Shown piece by piece: positions 33,504 through 52,308 of a DNA stretch of 64,000 nt. The position numbers and the translations under genes are program-made. Source of the DNA: Algoriphagus resistens (GTDB taxonomy: Bacteria > Bacteroidota > Bacteroidia > Cytophagales > Cyclobacteriaceae); assembly GCF_001442615.1 (NCBI RefSeq), contig NZ_LMXN01000009.1, positions 62,001 to 126,000 on the forward strand. Reading direction: 5' to 3'. Each line of letters opens with the position of its first letter. Positions within the stretch are counted from its first letter, which is position 1. The notes beneath the pieces were generated by a model. The model did no database searches. It worked only from the letters and a program-made list of their open reading frames with translations, and was not told the origin of the DNA.

Positions 33504-34643
33504 ATGACTTGGACTCAAGACCCGATTTATGTCAGCGGTATGCTTTGCATGTTTGTGTTGTTTTCTGTTTGGCTGACCAAATTCAAAAGTTTTCGAAGCA
33601 TAGGTACCCCTATTCTAGTAATTCTGGTAACTGCCATTGCTGCCAACTTTGGCTTCATTCCTGCGGCTTCCAACGGTAACCCCGTTTATACAGGCGTATT
33701 TGTGTATTTAGCTCCAATGGGGATTTTTATAGCCTTACTGGAAGTTGATCTCAAAAGTATCAAAAAAGCAGGGGGGCAGATTTTGCTTATGTTTGGAATA
33801 GGCGCTTTGGGGACTTTTGCAGGAGTATTAGTTGCGTGGTTTCTAGTAAAACCGGCAGCTTTGATAGGCCCACTGGCAAATGCGGTCGCGGGAATGTACG
33901 CTGGAACCTACATCGGCGGAAGCATCAATTTCAACGCAATTGCATTAAGCTACCAGGTAAATGAACATGCTGATTTATTTGCAGCTACCACAGTCGTTGA
34001 TAATTTGATCGGAACGCCTTGGATTATAGCTACATTGATTATACCAAAATATTTGCATAAGCTTTTTCCGAGAAAGAAGCTTTTTCCAATTTCTTCGGAG
34101 AATCAGAAAATTACAACCAAGGAAACAATCAGCATTGCCGACATGGCAGCTATTCTGGGGTTGGCATTTCTCGCTATGGCAATTTCTAAGTTTGTATTCC
34201 AGTTCTTTCCACAAATTCCCGAGATTCTTACGCTTACTACCCTGGCTTTAATTTTGGCTCAAGTGAAATTTATCCAGCAATTATCCGGTGCGCACACGAT
34301 TGGATTTTTTCTGATTCTTATTTTCTTAGCCGTCATCGGAACATTATGTGATTTAAGCATGCTCTCGGGCCTCGGTGATCTTGCTGGGATGCTCATCATG
34401 TTTGTTGGTATAATTGTTCTGGTTCACGGACTGGTGATTTTTGGAGTAGGAGCACTATTCAGAATAGATTGGGATGTCATTGCCGTCGCTTCACAGGCAA
34501 ATATAGGAGGCAATACCACGGCACTTGCGGCGGCCGAGAGTATGAACCGTCCAGATCTTCTCATTCCCGGAGTATTGGTGGGAAGTCTGGGCAATGCGCT
34601 GGGGACCTATGTGGGATTTTTTCTTGCAGGCATGCTTGGGTAA
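33504..34643 (+). CDS. DUF819 family membrane protein
   Basis: This 379-residue protein has about ten hydrophobic helices and the DUF819 pattern, including GMYAGTYIGGSINFNAIALSYQV and ASQANIGGNTTALAAAESM near the C-terminus. The paired glycine-rich loops in the two halves look like an inverted-repeat transporter. DUF819 function is not established to my knowledge. It follows the aminotransferase stop by eight bases, so it is probably cotranscribed although the link to glycan synthesis is unclear. Confidence 0.8.
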   Translation: MTWTQDPIYVSGMLCMFVLFSVWLTKFKSFRSIGTPILVILVTAIAANFGFIPAASNGNPVYTGVFVYLAPMGIFIALLEVDLKSIKKAGGQILLMFGIGALGTFAGVLVAWFLVKPAALIGPLANAVAGMYAGTYIGGSINFNAIALSYQVNEHADLFAATTVVDNLIGTPWIIATLIIPKYLHKLFPRKKLFPISSENQKITTKETISIADMAAILGLAFLAMAISKFVFQFFPQIPEILTLTTLALILAQVKFIQQLSGAHTIGFFLILIFLAVIGTLCDLSMLSGLGDLAGMLIMFVGIIVLVHGLVIFGVGALFRIDWDVIAVASQANIGGNTTALAAAESMNRPDLLIPGVLVGSLGNALGTYVGFFLAGMLG

Positions 34644-34689
34644 TACTTCTTATAGAATAGTTTGAAATGTTCCTTTTAGTAGTATTAAA

Positions 34690-34722
34690 AGTAAATTTTT
34701 GACAAAGAATAAAAAATTTACT
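34690..34722. promoter_or_regulatory. AT-rich dyad upstream of the ECF sigma gene
   Basis: Perfect 11-base arms AGTAAATTTTT and AAAAATTTACT (34690-34700 and 34712-34722) flank an 11-base spacer. It ends 38 bases before the sigma-factor start. It may be an operator, or an AT-rich terminator for the DUF819 gene. Confidence 0.4.
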
Positions 34723-34760
34723 ACCTTAAAATCGAATTTTGCTTTAATAAAATTTTGTAG

Positions 34761-35390
34761 ATGGGTAGTACAGTTGATCTATTTATTTTAAAAAGCCTCA
34801 AATCCACTTCCAGAAGACATTCTGACGACAGAGCTTTGTGGCAAAGTATGGCGAAGGGAAATGATCTTGCCTTTTCTAACTTATATCAGCGCTTTTCCAA
34901 TTTACTTTTTAATTATGGAATGCATTTTTGCTTCAACAGAGAACTCGTCAAAGACTGTATCCAGGAATTGTTTACCAATATATGGAATAGGAGAGAGTCG
35001 CTTTCCGAAGTTGATTCAGTGAAGTATTATCTTTTTAAGTCATTCCGAAACCTGCTTATTAAGCATATTAACAGGGATCGAAAGCTCTTTACTGATAGGA
35101 ATGAAGGGCAGGAACTGCAGGATTCGGAAACTTCGGTCGAAGATTACCTGGTTTCTCTTGAGTATGTGAAGGAAAATGAGCGGAAAATTACTGCTGCACT
35201 GAGTAAAATTTCCAATAGACAGCGGGAAATCCTCGTACTCAAGTATTTCAATGAGCTAAGCTATTCTGAAATAGCGAGTCTGATGTCCATCACCCCTGCT
35301 TCTGCCCATAACCTTCTTTCAAAGGCGTTACAATGCATGAGAGTTGTAATGAAAGCTTTATTGTTAGCATCCTTCCTCAATCATTTTTGA
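34761..35390 (+). CDS. ECF RNA polymerase sigma factor, Bacteroidota SusC/FecR-associated type
   Basis: This 209-residue protein has sigma region 2 (about 30-100, with CIQELFTNIWNRRESL and VKYYLFKSFRNLLIKHINRDRK) and region 4 (about 145-200, with ISNRQREILVLKYFNELSYSEIASLMSI). It directs RNA polymerase to a small set of promoters. The adjacent fecR and a SusC with an STN signalling domain indicate control by trans-envelope signalling: the receptor senses ligand, FecR relays, and the sigma factor is freed. Targets are probably the SusC/SusD genes next to it. The 139 bases to fecR hold no gene. Confidence 0.92.
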   Translation: MGSTVDLFILKSLKSTSRRHSDDRALWQSMAKGNDLAFSNLYQRFSNLLFNYGMHFCFNRELVKDCIQELFTNIWNRRESLSEVDSVKYYLFKSFRNLLIKHINRDRKLFTDRNEGQELQDSETSVEDYLVSLEYVKENERKITAALSKISNRQREILVLKYFNELSYSEIASLMSITPASAHNLLSKALQCMRVVMKALLLASFLNHF

Positions 35391-35529
35391 GCTTAAATTT
35401 TAAATTCCTGATAATCAGTAGTTTGATATTGTGTTTTATTGTTTTGATTTATTTTCTTAAAAAATATTGAGAAAAATGATGAGGTTTTGAAGCTATCATA
35501 CTCTATAGGTATAAACCAAAAGAGTTACA

Positions 35530-36540
35530 GTGGACAATCAACCTGCCGATTACGATAATTTTTCTTTAGATGACTTTGTCATAGATCCGTTTTTTAGGGA
35601 ATGGGTACTTTTTTCTGAGATTATTCATGAGGAATTCTGGTCAGACTGGAAAAAGGCAAATCCTTCGAAGATCAACTTGGTGGAAGAGGCGAGGGATATG
35701 GTTTTGAACCTTGAGAAATCAAAAATGGAAATGAGTCCAGAAGAGTTGCTTTCTGTTTGGGACACTATTCAAACTGATATCAAAAAGCCAGTAAAGACTC
35801 TTGAATCATCCACCCGTAAAAGCAAATTCTGGTCTTATTTCGCGGCAGTTGCATCCGTTGTTTTAGTGTGTATAGGTTGGTATTGGTATGAATTGCCCAA
35901 GGAGATCAAGTATCAGACTGCCTTTGGTGAAACTAAGGAAATCATGCTGCCAGACAGCTCCACAGTGATTCTGAATTCCAACTCTAAATTGACTTTTGTA
36001 AATAATTGGGAAGACCAAAGAGCTAGGGAAATATGGATTGAAGGAGAGGCATTTTTTAGTGTGGTTCACAAGATAGACCATCAGCCTTTCAAGGTGTTAA
36101 GTTCCCAAAATGTAGCTATTGAAGTGCTGGGGACTGAATTTAATGTATATAACCGCTCGGGGGAGACAGAAGTAATCCTCAACTCTGGCTTAGTCACACT
36201 TAGTTTTCCTGTAAAGGAAAAAGAAGGGAAAATTGTAATGGAGCCTGGAGATCTGGTCAAATTCAAAGATAATAAATTTCAGAGAGAAAAGGTGAACACT
36301 TCACTTTATACATCCTGGAAGGACAATATTTTAAACCTGGAGCACACCAGCCTGGCAGATATGGTAAAAATGGCAAAAGACAACTATGGTGTGACTATAG
36401 AGGTGCAAAATAAGGAAGCCTTGAGTCTTACGGCATCCGGATCTATGCCCTTGACGAATGCTGACGCATTTCTACATCAGATCGCCTTGATATTCAATGT
36501 GGAATTGAAAAAAGAGAATAACAAGTACTTGATTAAATAA
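35530..36540 (+). CDS. FecR-type anti-sigma/sigma-regulator
   Basis: This 336-residue protein has a cytoplasmic N-terminal part (1-100), one membrane helix (about 101-120) and a periplasmic FecR domain (about 130-240, with FGETKEIMLPDSSTVILNSNSKL and GEAFFSVVHKIDHQPFKVLS). A C-terminal STN-like segment (about 265-336, LEHTSLADMVKMAKDNYGVTIEV) should contact the SusC signalling domain. It begins with GTG. It lies 139 bases after the sigma gene and 43 before susC. It is expected to hold the sigma factor inactive until SusC binds substrate. Confidence 0.92.
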   Translation: MDNQPADYDNFSLDDFVIDPFFREWVLFSEIIHEEFWSDWKKANPSKINLVEEARDMVLNLEKSKMEMSPEELLSVWDTIQTDIKKPVKTLESSTRKSKFWSYFAAVASVVLVCIGWYWYELPKEIKYQTAFGETKEIMLPDSSTVILNSNSKLTFVNNWEDQRAREIWIEGEAFFSVVHKIDHQPFKVLSSQNVAIEVLGTEFNVYNRSGETEVILNSGLVTLSFPVKEKEGKIVMEPGDLVKFKDNKFQREKVNTSLYTSWKDNILNLEHTSLADMVKMAKDNYGVTIEVQNKEALSLTASGSMPLTNADAFLHQIALIFNVELKKENNKYLIK

Positions 36541-36583
36541 CCCAAAATGAAATTTTCCCCAAATAACCTCAAACCCTTTAAAC

Positions 36584-39500
36584 ATGAAAAAGCTATTACT
36601 ATTCATGTGTATAGGCTGCTCGATTTCATGGCATGCGCTGGCGCAAGTCACGGAATTAATTGCATCCGGGCGGACTATTAACACTGCTGGAGAAGCCGGC
36701 AAAAATTATGATGATTTACAACAAAGCCTGAGTAGACTGGAACAGGATTTCCAGGTATCCATAGCCTATCAGGATGAATTAGTCCGGGCAAAGAAAACCC
36801 GGGCCAAAATGGATTCTTTCGAATCTGTGGAGCAGGGACTGAACTCCCTTCTGCAAGGTACCGGCCTGAAATATGAAAAAGCAGGAGAGCGGTTTTACAT
36901 TATTTCCCCCAAGAAAGCCAGTGGAAACTTTAGTTCTGCAGCCATTTTGGTGAGTAGTAGGTCTACGGAACCGGCTATTTTCAGAAATTCCAGGATAGTG
37001 GCCGAAAGCACCCAAGCCCAGATGAAAAGAATTGAAGTCGGCGGGAAAGTAACGGATGAAAACGGCATAGGATTCCCAGGCGTGAATGTTTTATTGAAAG
37101 GAACTTCTGTAGGTACCGTGACAGATGCCCAAGGTGACTTTTTAATCAATGTAGAAAATGAAAACTCCGTGTTGGTTTTTTCTTTTGTCGGGTATGTTGA
37201 TCAGGAAGTAACAGTAGGCAATAGGACTGTTATCACGGTCAATATGCAAGTAGATGAAAGTAACCTGGAAGAAGTGGTAGTAACTGCACTAGGTATAGAA
37301 AAATCAGCGAAAAGTCTAGGTTACGCCACTTCTACTGTAAAATCTGACGAGCTCACCGTCAACAGGACTCCCAACGTGATGAATGCCCTGCAGGGAAAAG
37401 TGGCAGGTGTTAATATTTCTACGCTAGGCTCTGGTCCTGGAGGGACTTCTAAAATCAGGATACGTGGTCAGTCCTCTATTTCCGGCCAAAACAATCCCTT
37501 GATTGTAGTAAATGGTGTTCCTATCGACAACACTAATTTTGGTTCTAAGCCCGGTAATAATGCTTCCGATAGTAGTATTGGGATAAGAGGTGGGGGCAAT
37601 ACATCTGATGGGGGAGATGGACTATCCAGTATCAACCCTGATGATGTGGAATCCATGACGATCTTGAAAGGCGCTGCCGCCGCAGCGTTATACGGTTCCC
37701 GTGCCAAGGATGGTGTGATCATGATCACAACAAAAAGTAAAAATGATACCAGAGGAATAGGCGTGACTTATAATCTCAATTATACCAATGAATCACCACT
37801 GGATTTTACGGATTATCAATATGAATACGGTCAAGGTGAGCAGGGCGTAAGACCCACTACTCCTAATCCAACATCGGGTCAATGGTCATTTGGGGAGAAG
37901 TTCCAACCTGGTATGACCCAAATGCTTTTTGATGGAGTTACAGTTCCTTATGAGCCTGTGAAAGGGATTGTCAATGATTTTTTCCGCAATGGACAAAACG
38001 TGACCAATTCAGTGACATTGGCTACTTCTACAGAAAAAGGAGGTCTTAGTTTGTCTTTTTCAGACCTTAATAGTAAAGGGATTGTTCCAAATAATTCCTA
38101 CAACAGAAAGACAATTAATTTGGGATTTGGCTATGAACTTTCTCCTAAATTCAGCTTCAGAGGGAATTTTAATTATTCTTTCGAAAAGAATACCAATCCG
38201 CCTAACATCGGGGAACAGGACAATACTATTCCGGTGGCACTATATAATATGGCCAATTCCATGCCCCTGGATGTATTGCGGGATAACCGCTACGATGCCA
38301 ATGGAAATGAGGCGGTTTATTCCAGATTCAGAAATCGCACAAATCCATATTTCACACTCTCTGATCAGTTTCAGAATATAAAAAGAGATCGCATCTTCGG
38401 TAATGTGGCACTGAAGTATAAAATCAACGACTGGTTGTTTGTACAAGGTAGAGTTGGAGAGGATTTTTGGTCCAGGGATCAGGATTACAACAACTTCCCA
38501 ACAGGACAAGCTTCCAGAGCGGAGGCCCCCGAAGGTTTCGTGAATGGTATGTACACCCAGGAACAGCGAAGATTCAGGGAGATTAATACTGATTTCCTCA
38601 TAAATGCCAACAGAGAATTCGGCGATTTGAGGGTCAACGCCAATTTTGGAGGCAACCATATGCAGCGTAGATCCGAGCTGAATAGTGTTCAAGTGACTGA
38701 TTTTGTGGTAAGGGATTTATATACTGTACAAAATGGCAGAGCTAAAGATCCCCTTTACGATCTCAATGAACGGGCAGTAAATTCACTGTATGGATCCGCT
38801 GAGTTTTCCTATAAAGATAAGTTTTTCCTTACCGGAACAATTAGAAATGACTGGTTCTCTACCCTTTCCAAGGCGAATAGAAGTATTTTATATCCTTCGG
38901 TATCCGCCAGCTGGGTGTTTGCCGAAAATTATTCCACATCTGGTTGGTTGAATTTTGGTAAAGTGAGAGCTGCTTATGCAGAAGTAGGTAGCGATGCAGA
39001 TGTGGGAGCATATTCCAATGTGCTTTTCTATGGGATTAATAACAACTTGTTTGGTGGTCAGCCAGTAGGTGGTCCCTCAGGTACCAACCTCCCTAATCCT
39101 AATTTGAGACCAATGCGAATAGGAGAAGCTGAGGTTGGTTTCGAACTAGGAATGTTTGAAAGTAGAGTCAGTCTGGACATGGCTTTCTACCGCAAGCTTA
39201 CTACAGATCAGATCGTGAGCGCGCAGATTTCAGATGCAAGTGGATTTGTAAATACCTCTATCAATAGTGGGCAAAGCGTAAATAAAGGGATAGAGATGCT
39301 TTTGACTTTGGTTCCTATGGAGAATAGCAATTTTACATGGGAAACCACCTTTAACGCAGCATACAATGAGACGGAGGTGCTGAGCTTACTCACAGACACT
39401 CCTGGAGAGAGAATTACAGTCGGTACCCATGTGTTCAACGGTGAATTACGCCAGATAGTGGGAATGGAAATGGGACAGGTAGCCGGCTTTGGTTATAGGA

Positions 39501-40105
39501 GAGATGAACAGGGACGGAAGATTTTTGGAGCCAATGGATTGCCTCTCAGGACTGCTGATATGGTGAATTTCGGTAGCGCATTGCCTAATTGGGTAGGCGG
39601 TATCAATAATTCCTTTAACTATAAAGGAGTGATGTTGTCATTTTTGATTGATTTCAAACTTGGAAACATCATGCTTTCCGGTACCAATTTCAATGCGGTC
39701 CGTCATGGCCTTCATAAAATGACATTAGAAGGAAGAGAAGGCGGAGTGATAGGAGATGGAGTAAATGAAGCGGGCGAAACGAATACTGTTGTCGCACCTG
39801 TACAATCCTATTGGGAAATCGTGAGATCCCAGGCATTGGTAGAGCCGGTGATTTACGATGGGGGGTATTGGAAACTGAGGCAGATTACATTGGGATATGA
39901 TTTCACCAAACATTTGCCTGAAAATCAGCCATTCAAATCTGTGAAGCTAAACTTTGTCGCCAACAATGTATTCATGATCAAAAAATGGGTGGACAATATT
40001 GATCCTGAATCATTCGGCTACTCCTCAGATAACCTGGTGGGAATGGAGTCAACAGGCCTCCCTTCCACACGAGGATTAGGCTTCAATCTGAATGTCAAAT
40101 TTTAA
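36584..40105 (+). CDS. SusC/RagA family TonB-linked outer-membrane receptor with STN domain
   Basis: This 1173-residue protein has a signal peptide (cleavage near ALAQ, residue 21). A secretin/TonB N-terminal (STN) signalling domain (about 40-110) includes FQVSIAYQDELV and LNSLLQGTGLKYEKAGERFYII. A carboxypeptidase-like domain (about 150-225) includes VTDENGIGFPGVNVLLKGT. The SusC motif LEEVVVTALG near 230, a plug domain and a barrel ending NLNVKF follow. With SusD it would import a ligand through the outer membrane using TonB energy. The STN domain marks it as a transducing receptor for the FecR/sigma pair upstream. The substrate is unknown, but the downstream dehydratase-like genes suggest an acid sugar or its oligomer. 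Confidence 0.94.
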   Translation: MKKLLLFMCIGCSISWHALAQVTELIASGRTINTAGEAGKNYDDLQQSLSRLEQDFQVSIAYQDELVRAKKTRAKMDSFESVEQGLNSLLQGTGLKYEKAGERFYIISPKKASGNFSSAAILVSSRSTEPAIFRNSRIVAESTQAQMKRIEVGGKVTDENGIGFPGVNVLLKGTSVGTVTDAQGDFLINVENENSVLVFSFVGYVDQEVTVGNRTVITVNMQVDESNLEEVVVTALGIEKSAKSLGYATSTVKSDELTVNRTPNVMNALQGKVAGVNISTLGSGPGGTSKIRIRGQSSISGQNNPLIVVNGVPIDNTNFGSKPGNNASDSSIGIRGGGNTSDGGDGLSSINPDDVESMTILKGAAAAALYGSRAKDGVIMITTKSKNDTRGIGVTYNLNYTNESPLDFTDYQYEYGQGEQGVRPTTPNPTSGQWSFGEKFQPGMTQMLFDGVTVPYEPVKGIVNDFFRNGQNVTNSVTLATSTEKGGLSLSFSDLNSKGIVPNNSYNRKTINLGFGYELSPKFSFRGNFNYSFEKNTNPPNIGEQDNTIPVALYNMANSMPLDVLRDNRYDANGNEAVYSRFRNRTNPYFTLSDQFQNIKRDRIFGNVALKYKINDWLFVQGRVGEDFWSRDQDYNNFPTGQASRAEAPEGFVNGMYTQEQRRFREINTDFLINANREFGDLRVNANFGGNHMQRRSELNSVQVTDFVVRDLYTVQNGRAKDPLYDLNERAVNSLYGSAEFSYKDKFFLTGTIRNDWFSTLSKANRSILYPSVSASWVFAENYSTSGWLNFGKVRAAYAEVGSDADVGAYSNVLFYGINNNLFGGQPVGGPSGTNLPNPNLRPMRIGEAEVGFELGMFESRVSLDMAFYRKLTTDQIVSAQISDASGFVNTSINSGQSVNKGIEMLLTLVPMENSNFTWETTFNAAYNETEVLSLLTDTPGERITVGTHVFNGELRQIVGMEMGQVAGFGYRRDEQGRKIFGANGLPLRTADMVNFGSALPNWVGGINNSFNYKGVMLSFLIDFKLGNIMLSGTNFNAVRHGLHKMTLEGREGGVIGDGVNEAGETNTVVAPVQSYWEIVRSQALVEPVIYDGGYWKLRQITLGYDFTKHLPENQPFKSVKLNFVANNVFMIKKWVDNIDPESFGYSSDNLVGMESTGLPSTRGLGFNLNVKF

Positions 40106-40116
40106 TCCAACTAGCC

Positions 40117-41634
40117 ATGAAAAAGATATCTAAATACCTACTAATCATACTTGTGGTACTGTATTCATCGGCTTGCGACAGCAACTTTGATGAGTTGAAT
40201 ACCAATAAAGTGAGTGCAACATCTATTGATCCGGCTTTTCAGCTAAATGCTGCCATTGTAGGCTGTGCCTATCCAAATGGGTCTCTGGTCTATGACATGG
40301 GAGTGGTCCAGCAGATAGTCACTCCGAATTCCGGACTGGTCTCAGGAGCCAATTACAACCAAGATAACAGAACCTTGACTCAGGAGCTGTGGCAGGGATA
40401 CTATAGAAATGTTATCAAAAACACCCGGGATGTTATCACTAGATTGGAAGAAGATCAAAGTCGATCCAACTTAATACAGATGACCAGGATCATTCAGGCA
40501 TTTGCCTTTATGGTGCTGACAGACGATTATGGCAGCATTCCTTATTTCGAGGGAGGAAAGGGGTATTCGGATCAGATATACCTGCCGGTATATGATTCCC
40601 AAGAAGCTATATATGCAGATTTAATTAAGGAATTGACGGAAGCTACTGCCGCTTTGAATGTATCTGGAACCCTGGAATCTGCGGAGATTCTTTACCAGGG
40701 GGATGTGGAAAAATGGAGAAGTTTTGGGTACTCATTATTGCTGAGAGCTGGAATGAGATTGAGTGAGGTGGATCCAAGCAGGGCAGCACAGGTGGTCCAA
40801 TCTGCGGTACAAGGTGGGGTGATCCTGACAAATTCCGATAATGCAATTATCCGCCACGACCCGAACTACACTAACCCAATCGGCAATTTCCTGAATGCTA
40901 CCGAGGCTTCCAATTTCTACCTTACTGAGCCATTTGTAAACTATCTAAAAAATACAAACGATCCCAGATTGTCCGCTATTGCTGTGACCTATGTAGGGGC
41001 AAAGTCCGGGCCTGAGCAAATTCCGGGGAATGAGACATATGAGGCTGAGGTTCATAAGGGGATTCCTATGGGTAATGATAATGCCGGAGCTGTAAAGGCT
41101 GCGGCTGATTTAGGACTTGCTAGTTTCTATGAATTCGCTCAGGCAGATAGGAGGCGAGTGACCAAAAATACTGCACCGAATTTCCTGGTCACAGCATCAC
41201 AGAATTACCTGCTAATGGCAGAGGCAAGAGAAAGAGGCTGGATCAGCAGCGGGACGGTAGAAGAATACTACAATGCCGGCGTTCGGGCACACATGAATCA
41301 ATTAGGGACAGTGGATGAAGGTTCAGCCATTTCACCTTCGGACATAAATCAATACCTCCAAGGGAATCCATTCGAACCATCCATGGCTTTGGAGCAGATC
41401 AACACGCAATATTGGGTATCCAGCTTTCTGAATGGTCCCGAGGCTTTTGCTAACTTCAGGAGGTCTGGCTATCCAGAATTGGCTCCAAATCCATACCCTG
41501 GTAAAGAAGTTGAATTTATCAATCGATTGACTTATCCGAATTCTGAGATTTCCGTGAATTCAGAAAATGTCCAAGCTGCTATTTCAGCTCAAGGAGCTGA
41601 TAATCTGGCAACCAAAGTTTGGTGGGACAAATAA
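40117..41634 (+). CDS. SusD/RagB-like nutrient-binding lipoprotein (SusD-like_2)
   Basis: This 505-residue lipoprotein has a signal ending in YSSAC (C20). Its start ACDSNFDELNTNKVSA is typical of the SusD-like_2 branch. Conserved parts include LWQGYYRNVIKNTRDVITRLEED and the C-terminal FRRSGYPEL. It caps SusC at the cell surface and helps bind the ligand. It starts 11 bases after susC stops. No glycoside hydrolase or polysaccharide lyase follows, unlike a usual polysaccharide utilisation locus, so the ligand may be small. A terminator lies 6 bases after its stop. Confidence 0.92.
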   Translation: MKKISKYLLIILVVLYSSACDSNFDELNTNKVSATSIDPAFQLNAAIVGCAYPNGSLVYDMGVVQQIVTPNSGLVSGANYNQDNRTLTQELWQGYYRNVIKNTRDVITRLEEDQSRSNLIQMTRIIQAFAFMVLTDDYGSIPYFEGGKGYSDQIYLPVYDSQEAIYADLIKELTEATAALNVSGTLESAEILYQGDVEKWRSFGYSLLLRAGMRLSEVDPSRAAQVVQSAVQGGVILTNSDNAIIRHDPNYTNPIGNFLNATEASNFYLTEPFVNYLKNTNDPRLSAIAVTYVGAKSGPEQIPGNETYEAEVHKGIPMGNDNAGAVKAAADLGLASFYEFAQADRRRVTKNTAPNFLVTASQNYLLMAEARERGWISSGTVEEYYNAGVRAHMNQLGTVDEGSAISPSDINQYLQGNPFEPSMALEQINTQYWVSSFLNGPEAFANFRRSGYPELAPNPYPGKEVEFINRLTYPNSEISVNSENVQAAISAQGADNLATKVWWDK

Positions 41635-41640
41635 AAATAG

Positions 41641-41674
41641 AACCGAGTCTGGAAAATCTGGACTTGGTTTTTTT
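41641..41674 (+). terminator. Rho-independent terminator between susD and rraA-like gene
   Basis: The stem AACCGAGTC/GACTTGGTT (41641-41649 and 41661-41669, one G-U pair) has an 11-base loop and a run of seven or more T. The next gene starts 21 bases after the T-run, leaving almost no room for a promoter, so partial readthrough is possible. Confidence 0.8.
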
Positions 41675-41695
41675 CAATATTAGTTATATTCCAAT

Positions 41696-42628
41696 ATGAA
41701 CAAAACCTATATAACCCTATTGTTTCTATTGTTTTTTGTAATAGAATCTTTCGCCCAACAGATATCCAAAGAAGAAATGCTTTTCCTTACTCAAGAGTGG
41801 AGTGGAGAGCGATTTGAAGATGGACGACCCAAAGTCTCTGATGATCTATTGAGGCGGATGAAAATTGTAACCCATGATGAAGCGTGGGCAGTGATGAAAA
41901 ATGCAGGCTACAACTACCAATATGCTGATGGCTGGCAGATGATCAATCCCGACAGTATTCTGGTAGGTCGAGCATTGACTGCGACTTTCATGCCCGGCAG
42001 GCCTGATATTCACGGAGCTATAGATGCCAGGGGTAAATCAGAAGGCAAAAAAGGCCAGAATTCCTGGCCGGTGGATCTTTTGGTACAGGGAGATGTCTAT
42101 GTGGTTGATCAGTTTGGGATTCATGATGGAGGTCCTACGATTGGCGATAATGTAGGGAATGCCATTTATGCCAATTCAGGAAATGGGATAGTGTACAATG
42201 GAGCGGTCCGAGACATTCCCGGACTGAAAGAAATTGGTGGATTTACCTCCTACTACCGGACCTATCACCCTTCTCATCATAACCAGCCGAGGGATCTCAA
42301 TACGATGCTTATAGGAATCAATCGTCCGACAAGAATAGGTCAGGCCACGGTCATGGCAGGCGATGTAGTCCTGGGGAGAGACGGAGCAGTATCATTTATT
42401 CCTGCTCATTTAGCAGAAAAAGTAGTGGTAACCTCAGAAGTAGTTCGCCTAAGAGATATGTTTGGTCACCAGAGAATCAGGGAAGGCAAATATAGTGCTG
42501 GAGATATAGATACCCGTTGGTCGGATGAGATAGAAAAGGATTTTTCCCAATGGCTGGAAGCACACATCGATGAACTTCCGATAGCAAAAGAGCAGATCCA
42601 GGAAATTCTGAAAAACAGAACTTGGTAA
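41696..42628 (+). CDS. Exported RraA-family protein (aldolase-like), first copy
   Basis: This 310-residue protein has a Sec signal peptide (cleavage near SFAQ, residue 21). The RraA fold carries GDVYVVD (132-138), GDNVGNAIYA (150-159), the substrate/metal pair R172-D173 in GAVRDIPG, and GDVVLGRDGAVSFIP. RraA-like members include 4-hydroxy-4-methyl-2-oxoglutarate and related pyruvate-releasing aldolases, and the cytoplasmic RNase E inhibitor RraA. The export signal argues against the inhibitor role. It is 35 bases from a Tat-exported enolase-superfamily gene and similar to the second copy at 44000. I infer a periplasmic C-C lyase acting after the dehydratase. The name dimethylmenaquinone methyltransferase often attached to this family is probably wrong. 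Confidence 0.8.
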   Translation: MNKTYITLLFLLFFVIESFAQQISKEEMLFLTQEWSGERFEDGRPKVSDDLLRRMKIVTHDEAWAVMKNAGYNYQYADGWQMINPDSILVGRALTATFMPGRPDIHGAIDARGKSEGKKGQNSWPVDLLVQGDVYVVDQFGIHDGGPTIGDNVGNAIYANSGNGIVYNGAVRDIPGLKEIGGFTSYYRTYHPSHHNQPRDLNTMLIGINRPTRIGQATVMAGDVVLGRDGAVSFIPAHLAEKVVVTSEVVRLRDMFGHQRIREGKYSAGDIDTRWSDEIEKDFSQWLEAHIDELPIAKEQIQEILKNRTW

Positions 42629-42663
42629 TCCCTCACACTAAATAGCAAAACCAAAAATAACCT

Positions 42664-43938
42664 ATGAAACCTAAAAATTCTAGAAGATCATTTCTTCAAA
42701 AAAGCACATTTGCCGGCTTTGCAGGAGCCGGGCTGATGGGCACATTTGCCGGATTAAATAAAGCAGTCGCAAAACAGAACCCCTACTCCAATCCATCGGA
42801 TCTCAAAATTACAGATGTAAAATGTGGTTATGTGCGAGGAGCAGTATATGTGAAAATCTATACTGATCAGGATGTTTGGGGATGTGGGGAAGCTGTGGAT
42901 GCTATACAAGGTACTTACTATATGGTACAGCGGATGGGAAGGATGCTGAAAGGACAAAACCCGCTAAATCCAAATAGACTAGCAGAGCAAATCCGCAAGG
43001 GAGCATTTTTTGGTGGGGCACAATCTGGAGTTTTTGTCGCGGTATTGACAGCTATCGAAACAGCCCTTTGGGACATAACAGGAAAGGTATTTGGAGTGCC
43101 GGTCTATCAACTTCTTGGAGGGAAATTCAGGGATAAAATACGTGTGTATTGTGATACTGCACTGTATACCTCTACCAATCCTACGCCGGATGATTATGCG
43201 GCAGCTGCGCGAGGAGCAGTGGCTAAGGGATATAATGCAGTCAAATTTGATGTAGATGACGGCAGGGATCCAAATAAATATGACCGTTTCAATTGGACGG
43301 CGAATCCGGCAGAAATCGATCGTATGTATAATGCAATAGCTGCAGTGCGTGAAGAGGTAGGACCGAATATAGATATCTGCGTGGATATGCATGGAAGATA
43401 TGATGCGGTCACAGGGATGAAAATGGCTAAAATGTATGAGCCGTTGAACCTGATGTTTCTCGAAGAACCCATACCTGCAGATAATCCTGAAGTATATAAG
43501 CACATTACCCAAGAGACCAGCACACCGATCTGTGCAGGCGAAAACATCTACCTCGCCTACGGGTTTACCAAACTATTGTCTGATGGAGCCTTGAATATCA
43601 TTATGCCAGATTTACAGAAAGCCGGCGGATTAGGTGAAGGTCAACGCATCGCCAATCTCGCAAACCTCTACTATGTACCTTTTTCTCCGCACATGGTAGC
43701 CTCTTTTCTCGGTGCCATGGCTAGTTGCCATGTCTGCGCTTCTGTGCCGAATTTCCAGATAATGGAATGGCAGATTTATATGGATACGGATGATTTATGG
43801 AAGGACATTGTGACTTATGACGGTCCCCGGACAGAGAACAGTTTCATTACTCTTTCTGAAAAACCTGGAATCGGAGTGGAAATAAATGAGGAAGGAATGA
43901 AAAAACACGCAGTTCCCGGAATTCCATTCTTTGAATAA
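42664..43938 (+). CDS. Tat-exported enolase-superfamily acid-sugar dehydratase-like protein, first copy
   Basis: This 424-residue protein has a twin-arginine signal (R7-R8 in NSRRSFLQK, then a hydrophobic stretch). The mandelate racemase/muconate lactonising barrel shows K194 (AVKFD), metal ligands D241 (VDMHG), E267 (LEEP) and E293 (AGEN), and histidines H243 and H343 (SPHMV). The offsets +2, +26, +52 and +102 from the first ligand match those I recall for galactonate and mannonate dehydratases. It would dehydrate an aldonate or similar acid sugar to a 2-keto-3-deoxy acid. Such enzymes are usually cytoplasmic, so export is unusual. It is paired with the RraA-like gene 35 bases upstream. Confidence 0.85.
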   Translation: MKPKNSRRSFLQKSTFAGFAGAGLMGTFAGLNKAVAKQNPYSNPSDLKITDVKCGYVRGAVYVKIYTDQDVWGCGEAVDAIQGTYYMVQRMGRMLKGQNPLNPNRLAEQIRKGAFFGGAQSGVFVAVLTAIETALWDITGKVFGVPVYQLLGGKFRDKIRVYCDTALYTSTNPTPDDYAAAARGAVAKGYNAVKFDVDDGRDPNKYDRFNWTANPAEIDRMYNAIAAVREEVGPNIDICVDMHGRYDAVTGMKMAKMYEPLNLMFLEEPIPADNPEVYKHITQETSTPICAGENIYLAYGFTKLLSDGALNIIMPDLQKAGGLGEGQRIANLANLYYVPFSPHMVASFLGAMASCHVCASVPNFQIMEWQIYMDTDDLWKDIVTYDGPRTENSFITLSEKPGIGVEINEEGMKKHAVPGIPFFE

Positions 43939-43999
43939 GGAAAGACTGGAATGATCCCGTGCATTGCTAATAATTTAAAATCTTAAATCCTAAATTTCA

Positions 44000-44974
44000 A
44001 TGAATCTTATTATCTCAGCCCAGAGAGGAATAAAAGCTATGCTTTGGCTAGTTATTTTTTCCTGCTTGCTGGCACTTTCTAAATCCGGGGCAAAAGCGCA
44101 GAACGTCGGTGCTTCGCCCGAATATATCCAAGCATTAACTTCAGAATGGACCGGCGAGCGCTTTTCTGACGGAAGACCCAAAGTATCGGACTCCATCCTT
44201 GAGCGGCTAAAGCTCATTTCCATAGAAGAAGCTTGGGGTGTGTTGCGGAATAAAGGCTACCAAAACCAATATGAGGGGGAATGGGAGATTATGCTTCCCG
44301 ATGAAGCGATGACTGGAAGGGTGGTGACTGCCCAGTATATGCCACTGAGACCGGATTTGGAAAAGCAGGTCAAAGAACAGGGGGTAGAAAAGGAAGGAAG
44401 AGCTCCCAAGGGAGGAACCAATTCCTGGCCGATCGATATCCTTACCAATGGTGATGTGTATGTGGCGGATGGCTATGGGAAAATCGTTGATGGTACCTTG
44501 ATCGGGGATAATTTGGGCAATGCAATTTATGCCAAATCGCAACGTGGAGTTATTTTCAACGGTTCTGTCCGTGACCAGGAAGGGCTTTCCGAAATAGAAG
44601 GATTTAATGCTTGGATGAAAGGCCAGGATCCTTCCTACATCCAGCAAATGATGCTTACCTCTATCAATACACCGATTCGGATTGGCCGGGCTACTGTCTT
44701 GCCGGGTGATGTGGTGCTGGCAAAGAAATATGGTGTGATTTTCATTCCGGCACATTTGGTCGAAGAGCTTGTACTGACTTCTGAAATAACAGGGCTACGG
44801 GATGAATTTGGTCATCAGCGACTGCGGGAAGGTAAATACCTGGCTGGCCAGATAGATAGCCAGTGGACAGAGGAAATCAAAAAGGATTTCTTGGACTGGT
44901 TGAACAATTATCCTGGAAAACTTCCAATGAGCAAAGAAGAGCTCGATAATTACCTCAAGGAGCGTAACTACTGA
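44000..44974 (+). CDS. Exported RraA-family protein (aldolase-like), second copy
   Basis: This 324-residue paralog of the protein at 41696 has a longer N-terminal signal region (hydrophobic about 14-27, then KAQ). A shorter start at 44039 would also keep a signal peptide. The RraA fold has GDVYVAD (141-147), GDNLGNAIYA, R181-D182 in GSVRDQEG and PGDVVLAKKYGVIFIP. N-terminal WTGERFSDGRPKVSD is shared with the first copy. Its function is inferred as a periplasmic aldolase or lyase. It lies 61 bases after the first enolase-superfamily gene and 138 bases before the second, giving an alternating RraA/enolase arrangement. Confidence 0.8.
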   Translation: MNLIISAQRGIKAMLWLVIFSCLLALSKSGAKAQNVGASPEYIQALTSEWTGERFSDGRPKVSDSILERLKLISIEEAWGVLRNKGYQNQYEGEWEIMLPDEAMTGRVVTAQYMPLRPDLEKQVKEQGVEKEGRAPKGGTNSWPIDILTNGDVYVADGYGKIVDGTLIGDNLGNAIYAKSQRGVIFNGSVRDQEGLSEIEGFNAWMKGQDPSYIQQMMLTSINTPIRIGRATVLPGDVVLAKKYGVIFIPAHLVEELVLTSEITGLRDEFGHQRLREGKYLAGQIDSQWTEEIKKDFLDWLNNYPGKLPMSKEELDNYLKERNY

Positions 44975-45112
44975 AAATTCCATGAAACAAATAATCATAT
45001 ACTGCCCGATTCCTTAAAAGCAATTGGACAGCTTGGGATTATATGCTTAAAAATTTTTTGATTCAGCTGAAATTCAAATAAAAAACAAGGTCAATTAAAA
45101 ACCCAATTTATC

Positions 45113-46597
45113 ATGAAAAATACACTTAAAGACTTAATTCAAAAGAACCAGCTACGGGAGCAGAAGTACGCGGCACAACGGCAGGCTGAAATTGAAAATC
45201 CATTGACACTCGATAACAGAAGGGATTTTTTAAAAAAAACTGCACTTGGAGGCTTGAGTTTGACTGCACTTATGGGGTTGGGTATTGAAGATACTATAGC
45301 CGAGACAACCAAGAATGTACGTAGAGCCTCCGCGCCTTCAGATTTGAAAATTACCGATTTACGGTATGCACACACTAACGTGATGGGGGGTACTGCGATC
45401 CTTAGGATCGACACCAATCAAGGGATTTACGGTTTAGGAGAAGTACGTGATGGGGCAGATCCCAAATATGCGCTGATGCTGAAAAGCAGGATATTGGGTG
45501 AAAATCCATGTAATGTGGAGAAAATTTTCAAAATCATCAAGCAGTTTGGAGGCCAATCCCGACAAGCAGGAGGAGTTTGTGGTGTAGAAATGGCTCTTTG
45601 GGATCTTTGTGGAAAAGCTTATAATGTGCCTGCCTGGCAGCTTCTTGGAGGGCGATACAGAGACTCTGTAAGACTCTATGCAGATACCCCGGAAGCAAAT
45701 TCTCCTGAAGAGCAACTCAAGCTCATAAAGTACAGAACCGAAGAGCAAGGCTATACCTGGCTCAAAATGGACGTTTCCATCGGAGAAATCATGGATATTC
45801 CTGGGTGTATTGTGAATCAGGAGATTTTTAAATTAGGAAAAAGCCAGTGGCAGGGAGGTTATATGTCTTATGCAAACACTGCCCACCCATTCACGGGGGT
45901 TCAAATAACCGAGAAGGGCCTCGATGAGCTAGCAAAAATTGTGGATCATGTACGTGGGATGGTTGGTTACGACATTCCGATATCTACAGACCACTACGGA
46001 CACTTTGACCTGAACAACTGCATCCGTCTCGGTCAGGCATTAGATAAATACCGTCTGGCCTGGTTGGAGGATATGGTGCCTTGGCAGATGTGGCAGCAGC
46101 ACAAGACGATCACAGATTCCCTGAATACACCTACGACCACAGGTGAGGATATTTATTTACTTGAATATTTCAAAGATCTCATCGATAACCATGCTGTGGA
46201 TATTGTCCATCCGGATCTGGCATCTTCCGGAGGTCTTTTGGAGACAAAAAGAATTGCTGATTATGCAGAGGAAAAGGGAATTTCCATGGCGATGCACCAG
46301 GCAGGAACCCCTGTTTCATTTATGGCAAATGTACATTGCGCAGCAGCTTCTCAGAATTTCCTGGCTCTGGAGCATCACTCAGTCGATATTCCTTGGTGGG
46401 AAGATCTAGTGACTATGACTGGTGGGGGGAAAATGATCGATAAAGGATATGCGCCAGTTCCTTTGGACGCACCCGGACTAGGGATTGAGCTGAATGAGGA
46501 AGTTGTAAAAGCACATCTTCATCCTTCGGACAACTCCTATTTTGCTCCTACGGATATGTGGAACGATAAGCGTTCTCACGATAGAACATATAGTTAA
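45113..46597 (+). CDS. Tat-exported enolase-superfamily protein, second copy
   Basis: This 494-residue protein has a long polar n-region before its twin-arginine motif (R36-R37 in NRRDFLKK), followed by a hydrophobic stretch ending near IAE. A TTG start at 45203 would give a more usual signal length. The barrel shows K218 (WLKMD), ligands D293 (TDHYG), E319 (WLEDM) and E345 (TGEDI), and H395 (AMHQAG). Ligand spacing equals that of the first copy, but the +2 residue is Y295, not His. The chemistry may therefore differ, for example another epimer or an epimerisation. It is followed by a terminator. Periplasmic location is inferred. Confidence 0.82.
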   Translation: MKNTLKDLIQKNQLREQKYAAQRQAEIENPLTLDNRRDFLKKTALGGLSLTALMGLGIEDTIAETTKNVRRASAPSDLKITDLRYAHTNVMGGTAILRIDTNQGIYGLGEVRDGADPKYALMLKSRILGENPCNVEKIFKIIKQFGGQSRQAGGVCGVEMALWDLCGKAYNVPAWQLLGGRYRDSVRLYADTPEANSPEEQLKLIKYRTEEQGYTWLKMDVSIGEIMDIPGCIVNQEIFKLGKSQWQGGYMSYANTAHPFTGVQITEKGLDELAKIVDHVRGMVGYDIPISTDHYGHFDLNNCIRLGQALDKYRLAWLEDMVPWQMWQQHKTITDSLNTPTTTGEDIYLLEYFKDLIDNHAVDIVHPDLASSGGLLETKRIADYAEEKGISMAMHQAGTPVSFMANVHCAAASQNFLALEHHSVDIPWWEDLVTMTGGGKMIDKGYAPVPLDAPGLGIELNEEVVKAHLHPSDNSYFAPTDMWNDKRSHDRTYS

Positions 46598-46623
46598 GAA
46601 ATACCTGTTTTACCTAGAGATAG

Positions 46624-46665
46624 ACCCGAGAATCAGCTATCCAACTGGTTTTCGGGTTGTTTTTA
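46624..46665 (+). terminator. Rho-independent terminator after second enolase-superfamily gene
   Basis: The stem ACCCGAGAA/TTTTCGGGT (46624-46632 and 46649-46657, one G-U pair) is followed by TTGTTTTT. It separates the RraA/enolase block from the symporter gene, which starts 29 bases on. Confidence 0.7.
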
Positions 46666-46693
46666 AAAACTTTCACCCAAAAAAATCCTCATT

Positions 46694-47776
46694 TTGAATC
46701 CAAAAATCACTAAAGCACTTTCAATTGTCAGCGGTTTATTGCTCGTAGCAGCACTTGGCATTAGTCTTTTTTCTGGAATTGCACATGCCGGACCATTCTG
46801 GATCGGTTTTTTCTTTATCTGTGCAATTGCTTTTTTGGGGAATGCCAAACTAAAAGGGTATGCCTACTCCATGATGATCTTTGGGTCAGTCGCAATAGCC
46901 TTATACTTTCCTCAGTATTTTCTCGAGTATAAGGGCTTTAAGTTCAGTGCCTTGATTGTTCCTTTGATTCAGGTAATCATGTTTGGAATGGGAACTTCGA
47001 TGAGTATAAAGGATTTTCTTGGGGTAATCAAAATGCCCAAAGGGGTTTTGATTGGCGTGCTGTGTCAATTCTCCATCATGCCGTTTATAGGTTTCGTACT
47101 TGCGAAAGCAAGTGGTTTTCCGCCGGAAATTGCGGCTGGGATGATTTTGATCGGTTGCTCTCCGAGTGGTATGGCATCGAATGTCATGGCTTTTCTTGCC
47201 AGAGCTAATCTCGCACTTTCCATTACTGTAACTTCCGTTACAACGTTATTGGCGCCTCTTGTGACCCCGTTTTTGATGGGCTGGCTAGCTGGAGAGTTTG
47301 TGGCAATTGATGTGATGGATATGATGTTCAGTATCGTGAAAATGGTCATTATTCCGATAGGAGCGGGTCTGATTTTTAATTATTTCTTACAGGGCAAAGC
47401 TAAATGGCTGGATGATTTGATGCCTATTATTTCGATGGCAGCCATAGCGCTTATTTTGGTAGTAATCGTTGCTGCGGGTAGAGATAGTTTATTGGATATT
47501 GGGCCGCTGTTGATTATTCTGGTGGTAGTTCATAATCTTGCCGGATACATGCTGGGATATTGGGCGAGTAGATTGCTCAGGTTAAGTGAAAAAGATTGCA
47601 GGACTATTGCGATAGAAGTAGGTATGCAGAATGGAGGTTTAGCTTCAGGCATTGCCAAGGAAATGGGCAAAATTGCAACAGTGGGATTGGCTCCTGCTGT
47701 TTTTGGACCGTTGATGAATGTGACCGGATCTATTCTCGCCTCCTATTGGCATAAGAAACCCATTGATGCGGAATAA
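46694..47776 (+). CDS. Bile acid:sodium symporter (BASS) family transporter
   Basis: This 360-residue inner-membrane protein starts at TTG and has about ten helices. It carries the BASS signature GCSPSGMASNVMAFLARANLAL followed by TSVTTLLAPLVTPF, which holds the crossing helices and sodium-site residues. BASS members import organic anions with sodium, including bile salts, pantoate and, in plant plastids, pyruvate. Given the upstream dehydratase and aldolase-like genes, uptake of a keto acid or the intact acid sugar is a reasonable inference. It is the last plus-strand gene of this block. Bases 47777-47913 downstream hold nothing I recognise. Confidence 0.85.
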   Translation: MNPKITKALSIVSGLLLVAALGISLFSGIAHAGPFWIGFFFICAIAFLGNAKLKGYAYSMMIFGSVAIALYFPQYFLEYKGFKFSALIVPLIQVIMFGMGTSMSIKDFLGVIKMPKGVLIGVLCQFSIMPFIGFVLAKASGFPPEIAAGMILIGCSPSGMASNVMAFLARANLALSITVTSVTTLLAPLVTPFLMGWLAGEFVAIDVMDMMFSIVKMVIIPIGAGLIFNYFLQGKAKWLDDLMPIISMAAIALILVVIVAAGRDSLLDIGPLLIILVVVHNLAGYMLGYWASRLLRLSEKDCRTIAIEVGMQNGGLASGIAKEMGKIATVGLAPAVFGPLMNVTGSILASYWHKKPIDAE

Positions 47777-51888: not shown

Positions 51889-52308
51889 TTATGGTAGTTT
51901 ATACGCCTGTCGTGCAATAAGTTTCCAGTTCTCTTTTTCTTTTTGCCAAACTAGTATAACTCCGATTTTTATTGAATTCGATTTCCCACCATCGAGCACA
52001 TCTGCTGCTAAGTTATGTCGCACTATAGCAAGGTCTTTTTTTATTTGGATCGTCTGATCTTGAAAATCAACTGAAGCAAAATCAGAGGCTCCACTGACCA
52101 GTGCTTCGATAAATTGGGCTTGGTTTTCCAGCTTTCCGCTAGAGTGACCATAACTCAGATGTATGGAGCTCAGTTCGCTAAGATTGGCTACAGTGGGATC
52201 AATTAATGCCAGACGGAGTTTTTCTACCTGGGATTCGACTTCCTTTTCCGCTTGCGCAAAAGCAAAGGTGATACTGAAAAAAAGAGAAAGGGTTAAAATG
52301 GTTTTCAT
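51889..52308 (-). CDS. Exported NTF2-like (SnoaL/DUF4440) protein
   Basis: This 139-residue protein has a signal peptide (cleavage near FAQA, residue 19). The mature part has the NTF2-like pattern of the DUF4440 group: EVEKLRLALIDPTVANLSELSS-type helix, YGHSSGKLENQAQFIEAL, and a last strand VWQKEKENWKLIARQAYKL. Such cone-shaped domains bind small ligands or act as enzymes; function here is unknown. It lies 26 bases upstream of the response regulator and is a good candidate for a periplasmic accessory to the sensor. A single GATTAG lies upstream at 52391. Confidence 0.75.
   Translation of the reverse strand: MKTILTLSLFFSITFAFAQAEKEVESQVEKLRLALIDPTVANLSELSSIHLSYGHSSGKLENQAQFIEALVSGASDFASVDFQDQTIQIKKDLAIVRHNLAADVLDGGKSNSIKIGVILVWQKEKENWKLIARQAYKLP

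Follow-up and report, generated by a model that had tools for sequence, protein, structure and literature searches.

Can a bacterium carry out the first steps of sugar-acid breakdown outside its cytoplasm? This chemistry is normally intracellular, and the question is raised by a five-gene cassette of Algoriphagus resistens that lies within 64,000 nucleotides of contig NZ_LMXN01000009.1 (positions 62,001 to 126,000; the window). In the open reading frame (ORF) map the cassette occupies the plus strand at 41696-47776 and encodes, in order, an RraA-fold protein (RraA1), an enolase-superfamily protein (ENO1), a second RraA-fold protein (RraA2), a second enolase-superfamily protein (ENO2) and a BASS-family carrier. 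Genes for a sigma factor, FecR, SusC and SusD precede it on the same strand (34761-41634). Our analysis gives good support to the cassette as a periplasmic sugar-acid pathway in kind, and for its course we lean somewhat towards uptake by SusCD, dehydration by ENO1, a step catalysed by RraA and import by BASS. Families, export motifs, pairing, active-site residues and partners were read from sequence; from them we infer substrates, reactions and the direction and cargo of BASS. The window proteins of this block exceeded the curated cut-offs of the Pfam models of all their families, as follows.

41696-42628, plus strand: RraA1, predicted exported RraA-fold protein (PF03737), metal motif D-X20-R-D at D151, R172 and D173
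42664-43938, plus strand: ENO1, Tat-type protein of the mandelate-racemase superfamily, probable acid-sugar dehydratase (PF13378/PF02746)
44000-44974, plus strand: RraA2, predicted exported RraA-fold protein (PF03737, alignment, metal motif)
45113-46597, plus strand: ENO2, Tat-type enolase-superfamily protein with D-H-x-G-H replacing D-x-H (PF13378/PF02746)
46694-47776, plus strand: BASS-family carrier (PF01758, 134.7 bits)
34761-35390, plus strand: ECF sigma factor (Pfam Sigma70_r2/r4_2 and NCBIfam sigma70-ECF, above cut-off)
35530-36540, plus strand: FecR anti-sigma/sensor protein (PF04773 and PF16344, above cut-off)
36584-40105, plus strand: SusC/RagA TonB-dependent transporter with an N-terminal STN domain (TIGR04056, 638.9 bits against a cut-off of 368.25)
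40117-41634, plus strand: SusD-like lipoprotein of the SusD-like_2 type (PF12771, 268.2 bits)

Conservation and export of the cassette proteins

The cassette was compared with 80 named loci (L numbers; genomes carry G numbers). These were the best 80 of at least 534 RraA1 relatives, so that what they show applies to proteins closely related to RraA1 rather than to exported RraA proteins at large. The source organisms were all Bacteroidota by title. In 75 of 79 cases RraA1 had an enolase-superfamily gene next to it in the same orientation, no more than 500 bp away, and two of the four exceptions lay at contig edges, which indicates that the pairing is not due to chance. The complete order RraA1-ENO1-RraA2-ENO2-BASS was present in 11 of the 80 loci, while BASS, SusC and SusD proteins with at least 25% identity to those of the window were found in 42, 45 and 34 loci, respectively. 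Three of the ten genus loci examined at length (L059, L061 and L062 among L054-L063) carried the cassette without SusCD, suggesting that the five genes hold together more firmly than they do with SusCD.

The search with RraA1 was positive in 19 of 58 genomes, including its own. Two RraA copies were present in every one of the 16 positive genus genomes, lying 2.2-2.6 kb apart on one contig in 14 and on separate contigs in G307 and G327. The search with ENO2 was positive in 24 of 59 genomes of the genus and 12 of 296 of the phylum (own genome included in both), and its presence agreed with that of RraA in all 36 genus genomes covered by both searches (16 with both, 20 with neither). The whole A. 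resistens genome encodes two RraA-family proteins (PF03737), both in the cassette, and five enolase-superfamily C-domains (PF13378), two of them in the cassette.

ENO1 starts with MKPKNSRRSFLQK, which contains a twin-arginine motif, and ENO2 carries the twin-arginine motif NRRDFLKK behind a 34-residue lead. RraA1 and RraA2 each begin with a hydrophobic N-terminus. Across the 80 loci, the twin-arginine motif was present in 80/81 ENO1 and 29/34 ENO2 proteins, and a hydrophobic N-terminal stretch in 75/79 RraA1 and 34/37 RraA2 proteins, all called by simple in-house motif and hydropathy rules rather than a signal-peptide program. The genome also encodes TatC of the twin-arginine translocation (Tat) system. 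A location of ENO1, ENO2, RraA1 and RraA2 outside the cytoplasm is thus well supported as a prediction. Signal-like N-termini were also seen in a separate RraA-family clade from other phylum genomes (L202, L203, L206, L207 and L208). These results bear out what the original prediction, made from the DNA letters alone, had described: five genes in this order behind an uptake and regulation module, with exported RraA-fold and twin-arginine enolase-superfamily proteins. The gene order, which it had proposed to search for in other Bacteroidota, does recur there.

Pathway partners in relatives

The most extended relative is L074, from genome G108 of another class of the phylum. Its genes form a single same-strand run that begins SusC-SusD-UxuA-UxuA-RraA-ENO2-BASS-ENO2 and continues with a pyrroloquinoline quinone (PQQ) dehydrogenase, a gluconolactonase-family protein, a PfkB-type protein resembling 2-keto-3-deoxygluconate (KDG) kinase, and a 2-keto-3-deoxy-6-phosphogluconate (KDPG) aldolase. 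Both UxuA-type proteins carry a Tat motif, and the KDPG aldolase and one UxuA scored above curated cut-offs. L075 (G286) has the order RraA-ENO2-BASS-ENO2-2-epimerase-like protein-PQQ dehydrogenase-gluconolactonase family. In L141 (Muricauda), KDG-kinase-like and KDPG aldolase genes lie directly 3' of RraA1-ENO1-BASS, and their products are 73% and 64% identical, respectively, to the L074 counterparts. A PQQ dehydrogenase was encoded near RraA1/ENO1 in four of the 80 loci (L124, L128, L132 and L142), adjoined by a cupin-domain protein and accompanied by a lactonase-family protein in each; a 2-epimerase-like protein was encoded in 4 of the 80. Together, these partners, the PQQ-dehydrogenase, gluconolactonase-family and UxuA-type proteins as exported ones and the KDG-kinase-like and KDPG-aldolase proteins as cytosolic ones, support a periplasmic sugar-acid route.

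Recurrent neighbours in the 80 loci were assigned by running Pfam on one representative per cluster. Those compatible with sugar acids were aldehyde dehydrogenase (10 loci), FAH-family (8), IlvD/Edd dehydratase (8), GH67 (6), GntP permease (5) and HpaI-type aldolase (4). Less informative were AraC regulator (8), FGGY kinase, MFS carrier and GDSL esterase (7 each), SDR and glutaminase-like (6 each), GH2 and BipA (5 each) and GH3 (4). In four Spirosoma loci (L135, L140, L145 and L147) the surroundings of the RraA1-ENO1 pair include genes for a UxuA-like protein and an MFS carrier as well as one of GH67 type, a hint at glucuronate or methyl-glucuronate as a substrate there.

Within the genus, a second PQQ dehydrogenase was encoded in 9 of 24 ENO2-positive and 0 of 35 ENO2-negative genomes (Fisher p 1e-4, in a test that ignores kinship and genome size). 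Of the nine loci, six were read, one from A. resistens itself and five from other members of the genus. Each of the six had a lactonase-family gene about 3 kb away or less, and a gene between the two encoded a protein 64-67% identical to the L124 cupin protein. This PQQ dehydrogenase-cupin-lactonase group (L220-L225) is thus conserved in six Algoriphagus genomes that carry the cassette, at a site not linked to it. The A. resistens genome has a KDG-kinase-like gene together with a KDPG/KHG aldolase (L100, G000:C42). It also has a second gene of the KDPG-aldolase family, close to one that looks by eye like a gluconokinase gene (L099). KDPG aldolase and KDG kinase were rejected as markers of the cassette, being present in 57/59 and 56/59 genus genomes, as was the first PQQ dehydrogenase copy (57/59), since only the second copy differs.

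The RraA and BASS steps

Active-site residues were counted over distinct proteins, the window's included, after removal of identical or contained ones, which kept 148 of 155 RraA, 89 of 92 ENO1, 55 of 58 ENO2 and 56 of 59 BASS proteins. RraA1 and RraA2 are 50% identical in alignment. The RraA fold of RraA1 was confirmed by PF03737 and by Foldseek, in which its AF2 model (pLDDT 86.4) matched PSPTO_3204, RraAS2 and the HMG/CHA aldolase 3noj (E 3.7e-13). The motif D-X20-R-D, which Mazurkewich is said to have described in 2014 for HMG/CHA-type aldolases, is present in both window proteins and in 89/89 distinct RraA1. Of 59 RraA2 proteins, 46 carried the strict motif, 1 had R-N, 8 had an alternative acid and 4 had neither. 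The Asp was thus retained in 47, and the 8 with the alternative acid carried Glu three residues past Arg-Asp, the other known metal position. A metal acid therefore occupies one of the two positions in 144/148 RraA proteins, which argues for a working metal-enolate site, with the proviso that kinship lowers the number of independent metal-acid swaps in RraA2. According to PMC5065237, most homologues carry one of two motifs.

Scores against curated families were low. The two window RraA proteins reached 24.2 and 52.1 bits against the LigK/PcmE cut-off of 304.5; for the equivalog of the RNase E regulator RraA (136 bits), RraA2 reached 36.1 bits and RraA1 was unlisted. The nearest curated family of both was PRK08245, at 80.2 and 94.9 bits against a cut-off of 208. 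Aldolase, dehydratase/decarboxylase and another enolate reaction are all candidates for the RraA step on this evidence.

The BASS protein aligned with the ASBT_NM-type transporter 8oyf of the PDB (E 5.8e-66). It has the SBF domain PF01758, and the sodium-site residues are conserved (Ser 55/56, Asn 56/56); the cut-offs of TIGR00841 (326.3) and PanS (400) were not reached, at 237.1 and 235.6 bits. Asn313, the equivalent of ASBT_NM Asn265, is Asn in 55/55 proteins with a letter there, and the Thr112 position is occupied by Leu in 24, Met in 16, Val in 10 and Thr in 6 of 56. According to PMC10645422, ASBT_NM binds pantoate and not ketopantoate, Asn265 goes with this preference, and plant keto-acid BASS carriers are reported to differ at these sites. 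The retained Asn means that a keto acid is not the obvious cargo, and a hydroxy acid appears as likely for BASS as a keto acid.

The best-surviving alternative, though still a doubtful one, is that the enolase-superfamily dehydratases make keto-deoxy acids, that both RraA proteins cleave these to pyruvate and an aldehyde in the periplasm, and that BASS imports pyruvate or a keto acid. The match of RraA1 to an HMG/CHA aldolase and the invariant D-X20-R-D speak for it, and so does the presence of two RraA proteins of 50% identity beside enolases only about 31% alike, as if the latter yielded a common product type; this difference in relatedness is also a hint that RraA acts after dehydration. 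The KDG-kinase-like and KDPG aldolase genes in the cassette runs of L074 and L141 and the hydroxy-acid-like site of BASS speak against this route.

It is unlikely that RraA acts instead as a dehydratase/decarboxylase on 2-keto-3-deoxy acids, giving a product of the alpha-ketoglutaric semialdehyde type that BASS imports and a cytosolic dehydrogenase oxidises. The precedent is FlDet of Flavobacterium UMI-01, an RraA-family KDGR dehydratase/decarboxylase that both dehydrates and decarboxylates 2-keto-3-deoxy-glucarate but does not use KDG (PMC8563752). The members of PRK08245 above cut-off came from six phylum genomes of one family (L183-L188); they resemble FlDet in length and, on visual inspection, at the N-terminus, and share a P-x-R-x-D loop with the exported RraA proteins. 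The aldehyde-dehydrogenase and FAH-family neighbours would also fit such a product. However, the two window proteins score far below the family cut-off, five of the six FlDet-like proteins have S..RD-X2-E where RraA1 has D-X20-R-D, and FlDet is inactive on KDG. In a quick tree, to be read with a long-branch warning, the exported RraA proteins (30 rows) formed one side of a branch with SH-aLRT 100, a separate clade on a long branch that did not include the FlDet-like proteins.

The enolase-superfamily proteins

ENO1 retains the D-x-H motif in 88 of 89 distinct proteins, and its catalytic residues (D-x-H, metal acids, D/H dyad) are present as D 89, His 88, E 89, E 88, D 88 and H 89 of 89. Its best curated model is galactonate dehydratase (248.7 bits, under the equivalog cut-off of 311), and its best solved relative is Rubrobacter 2QQ6 (E 1.9e-93). 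These data make ENO1 a probable acid-sugar dehydratase. In ENO2 the D-x-H histidine is gone and D-H-x-G-H stands in its place in 55/55 distinct proteins; ENO1 and ENO2, which differ in this way in the active site, are not duplicates of one enzyme. The model of ENO2 (mean pLDDT 82.9) superposed on 2QQ6 with Z 48.1 and a root-mean-square deviation (rmsd) of 1.8 over 369 aligned residues. Further neighbours in VIA-align were galactonate-dehydratase-type proteins and cycloisomerases, among them those for galactarolactone and anhydrogalactonate (4hpn, 5olc); this list was a second look, in which absent folds carry no meaning. ENO2 could be an isomerase, or a dehydratase built to a different design.

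This leads to a further alternative, which we consider improbable: the enolase-superfamily proteins would be racemases, cycloisomerases or lactone enzymes, and the cassette would salvage a modified acid sugar such as an anhydro or lactone form. The missing D-x-H and the cycloisomerase neighbours of ENO2 favour it, but ENO1 keeps the dehydratase residues and scores highest as a galactonate dehydratase, and the KDG-type partners in L074 and L141 do not fit. It is very improbable that the exported proteins take up or store some other small acid and that their neighbours are there by chance: many loci do carry the RraA-enolase pair without telling partners, yet the pairing itself is nearly constant, and KDG, PQQ and lactonase partners recur both in L074 and L075, which belong to another class, and in L124 and L141 of Muricauda-type genera.

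The proposed pathway

In the periplasmic pathway that we favour, aldonic or other acid sugars would enter through SusCD, and the STN domain of SusC would report to FecR and the ECF sigma factor. Tat-exported ENO1 would dehydrate the acid sugar to a 2-keto-3-deoxy acid in the periplasm, while ENO2, through its modified active site, might handle a second substrate or a related step. Sec-exported RraA would convert the 2-keto acid by way of an enolate stabilised by a metal; a class II aldolase is the likeliest form of this reaction, a dehydratase/decarboxylase the next. BASS would import the product, a keto-deoxy acid or a fragment of it, and KDG kinase with KDPG aldolase, or pyruvate metabolism, would complete the breakdown inside the cell. 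In some relatives, a periplasmic PQQ dehydrogenase and a lactonase probably make the acid from the sugar.

Several findings weigh against this pathway. RraA, ENO and BASS proteins all fall under every curated specific-enzyme cut-off, and the L074 PfkB kinase best matches KDG-kinase models and yet stays below the specific ones. Partners are sparse in the 80 loci: KDG-kinase-like protein with KDPG aldolase in 1, PQQ dehydrogenase in 4, lactonase family in 6 and UxuA-like proteins in 10. By our in-house motif rule a Tat motif was present in none of those 10 UxuA-like proteins, and several are signal-less, including Spirosoma ones whose starts were seen, so that some partners look cytosolic. In the A. 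resistens genome, KDG kinase and KDPG aldolase are not adjacent to the cassette, and nearly all genus genomes encode each of them, whether or not they carry it. If KDG is phosphorylated inside the cell in L074 and L141, a periplasmic RraA aldolase would compete for it. RraA2 of L141, L124 and L134 lacks the metal acid. The blindness of the Fisher test to kinship and genome size, the altered active site of ENO2 with its cycloisomerase neighbours, and the conserved Asn of BASS belong here as well.

Measured against the original prediction, the periplasmic acid-sugar pathway has been strengthened by the exported PQQ-dehydrogenase and gluconolactonase-family partners of some relatives and by their KDG-kinase-like/KDPG-aldolase genes, while its RraA and BASS steps stay putative. 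Its view of the enolases as acid-sugar dehydratases holds for the residues of ENO1 and not for the active site of ENO2, and the idea of two equivalent RraA/enolase pairs is not supported as worded. Cleavage to pyruvate by RraA is reduced to one option, given the FlDet reaction (PMC8563752) and the kinase and aldolase genes of L074 and L141. Import of a keto acid by BASS does not stand as worded, given the Asn that in ASBT_NM goes with pantoate and not ketopantoate (PMC10645422).

A bolder version of the favoured pathway, which we hold to be rather unlikely, is an extracytoplasmic Entner-Doudoroff-like pathway in which oxidation, lactone hydrolysis, dehydration and RraA cleavage or decarboxylation are all periplasmic, electrons pass to the membrane by PQQ, and BASS imports only a small acid. 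If true, it would place central sugar-acid catabolism in a new compartment and, as far as the literature searched shows, give an exported RraA fold its first function. More generally, if the pathway exists, a common group of environmental Bacteroidota would have an extracytoplasmic route for dehydrating, and perhaps cleaving, sugar acids. A role would then be found for a set of exported 'RraA' and 'mandelate racemase' proteins, as new enzymes with directly testable substrates. A new cargo class would be suggested for BASS carriers, and rapid periplasmic conversion to acids might keep sugars private to the bacterium. No account of the cassette was found in the literature searched, most subscription papers being outside its reach.

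Locus layout and regulation

The STN domain (PF07660) spans residues 58-110 of SusC. A domain of this kind signals to FecR, and the gene set fits feedback control by transport. The SusC/SusD pair that marks a polysaccharide utilisation locus is present, and Pfam detected no glycan-degrading enzyme among the ten ORFs scanned at 33504-47776. The earlier remark that no glycoside hydrolase is encoded thus applies to these ORFs and does not extend to relatives, since GH67-, GH2- or GH3-type genes lie in the 10-kb flanks of some Spirosoma, Mucilaginibacter and other loci. Two further features belong to the description of the window.

46623-46658, plus strand: terminator-like hairpin of 14 pairs with a T-run, in the ENO2-BASS gap
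51889-52308, minus strand: DUF4440 protein with the look of an exported one (family assigned through Pfam on its L103 homologue), possibly an accessory detached from the cassette

The hairpin in the ENO2-BASS gap makes a single-transcript operon only putative. Terminator-like hairpins with a T-run occurred at 8 sites in the region against 6.5 expected. A second one was spotted by eye in the SusD-RraA1 gap (about 41640-41675), and attenuation within the operon at the two gaps is possible. With the window included, a crude script found a hairpin ahead of a T-rich tail in 9 of the 30 gaps between ENO2 and BASS and in 4 of the 22 between SusD and RraA1; it used fixed lengths, counted some genomes twice and missed the stem seen by eye in the window's SusD-RraA1 gap, and we therefore do not claim conservation of the hairpins. 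Those that some relatives have at matching gaps are unlike. A sigma-70 promoter scan was uninformative (15 sites against 15.2 expected).

DUF4440 homologues were present in 12 of the 80 loci, and all but one of these 12 have the gene right next to cassette genes and in the same orientation; the window protein may be an accessory whose gene has become separated from the others of the pathway. A DUF819 permease is encoded at 33504-34643, immediately 5' of the sigma factor gene, and also near the cassette in several Algoriphagus loci; the maps that were read showed none in other genera. Elsewhere in the window, a 2376-residue ORF lies on the minus strand at 8601-15731.

Comparison with known systems

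The classical route of PQQ glucose dehydrogenase and gluconolactonase ends at periplasmic gluconate or ketogluconate. The cassette resembles this periplasmic glucose oxidation in that related enzymes (PQQ dehydrogenase, gluconolactonase family) lie beside it in some relatives, and differs in that it adds dehydration. ENO1 shares its domain pair and catalytic residues with D-galactonate, D-gluconate and D-mannonate dehydratases; unlike these, ENO1 and ENO2 are Tat-type and fall below the specific cut-offs, and ENO2 is without D-x-H. The structural relative Rubrobacter 2QQ6 belongs to the enolase superfamily, and its entry title states no function.

The window RraA proteins share the fold, the Arg-Asp and the upstream Asp of the metal site with the HMG/CHA aldolase 3NOJ and RraA-like class II aldolases, whereas they are exported by prediction, are about 310 residues long with N- and C-terminal extensions, are 18% identical to it, form their own clade and score below the curated cut-off. 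With FlDet they share the RraA family and, as seen through the FlDet-like proteins L183-L188 rather than FlDet's own sequence, the P-x-R-x-D loop. FlDet works on a 2-keto-3-deoxy acid, the substrate type proposed here; in contrast, it is a protein of 237 residues without an export extension, and the metal motif (5/6) and clade of the FlDet-like proteins differ. The BASS carrier resembles ASBT_NM and PanS in its sodium-site Ser/Asn and in the Asn265 equivalent, and departs from them at the Thr112 position, which is Leu, Met or Val in 50 of 56 BASS proteins.

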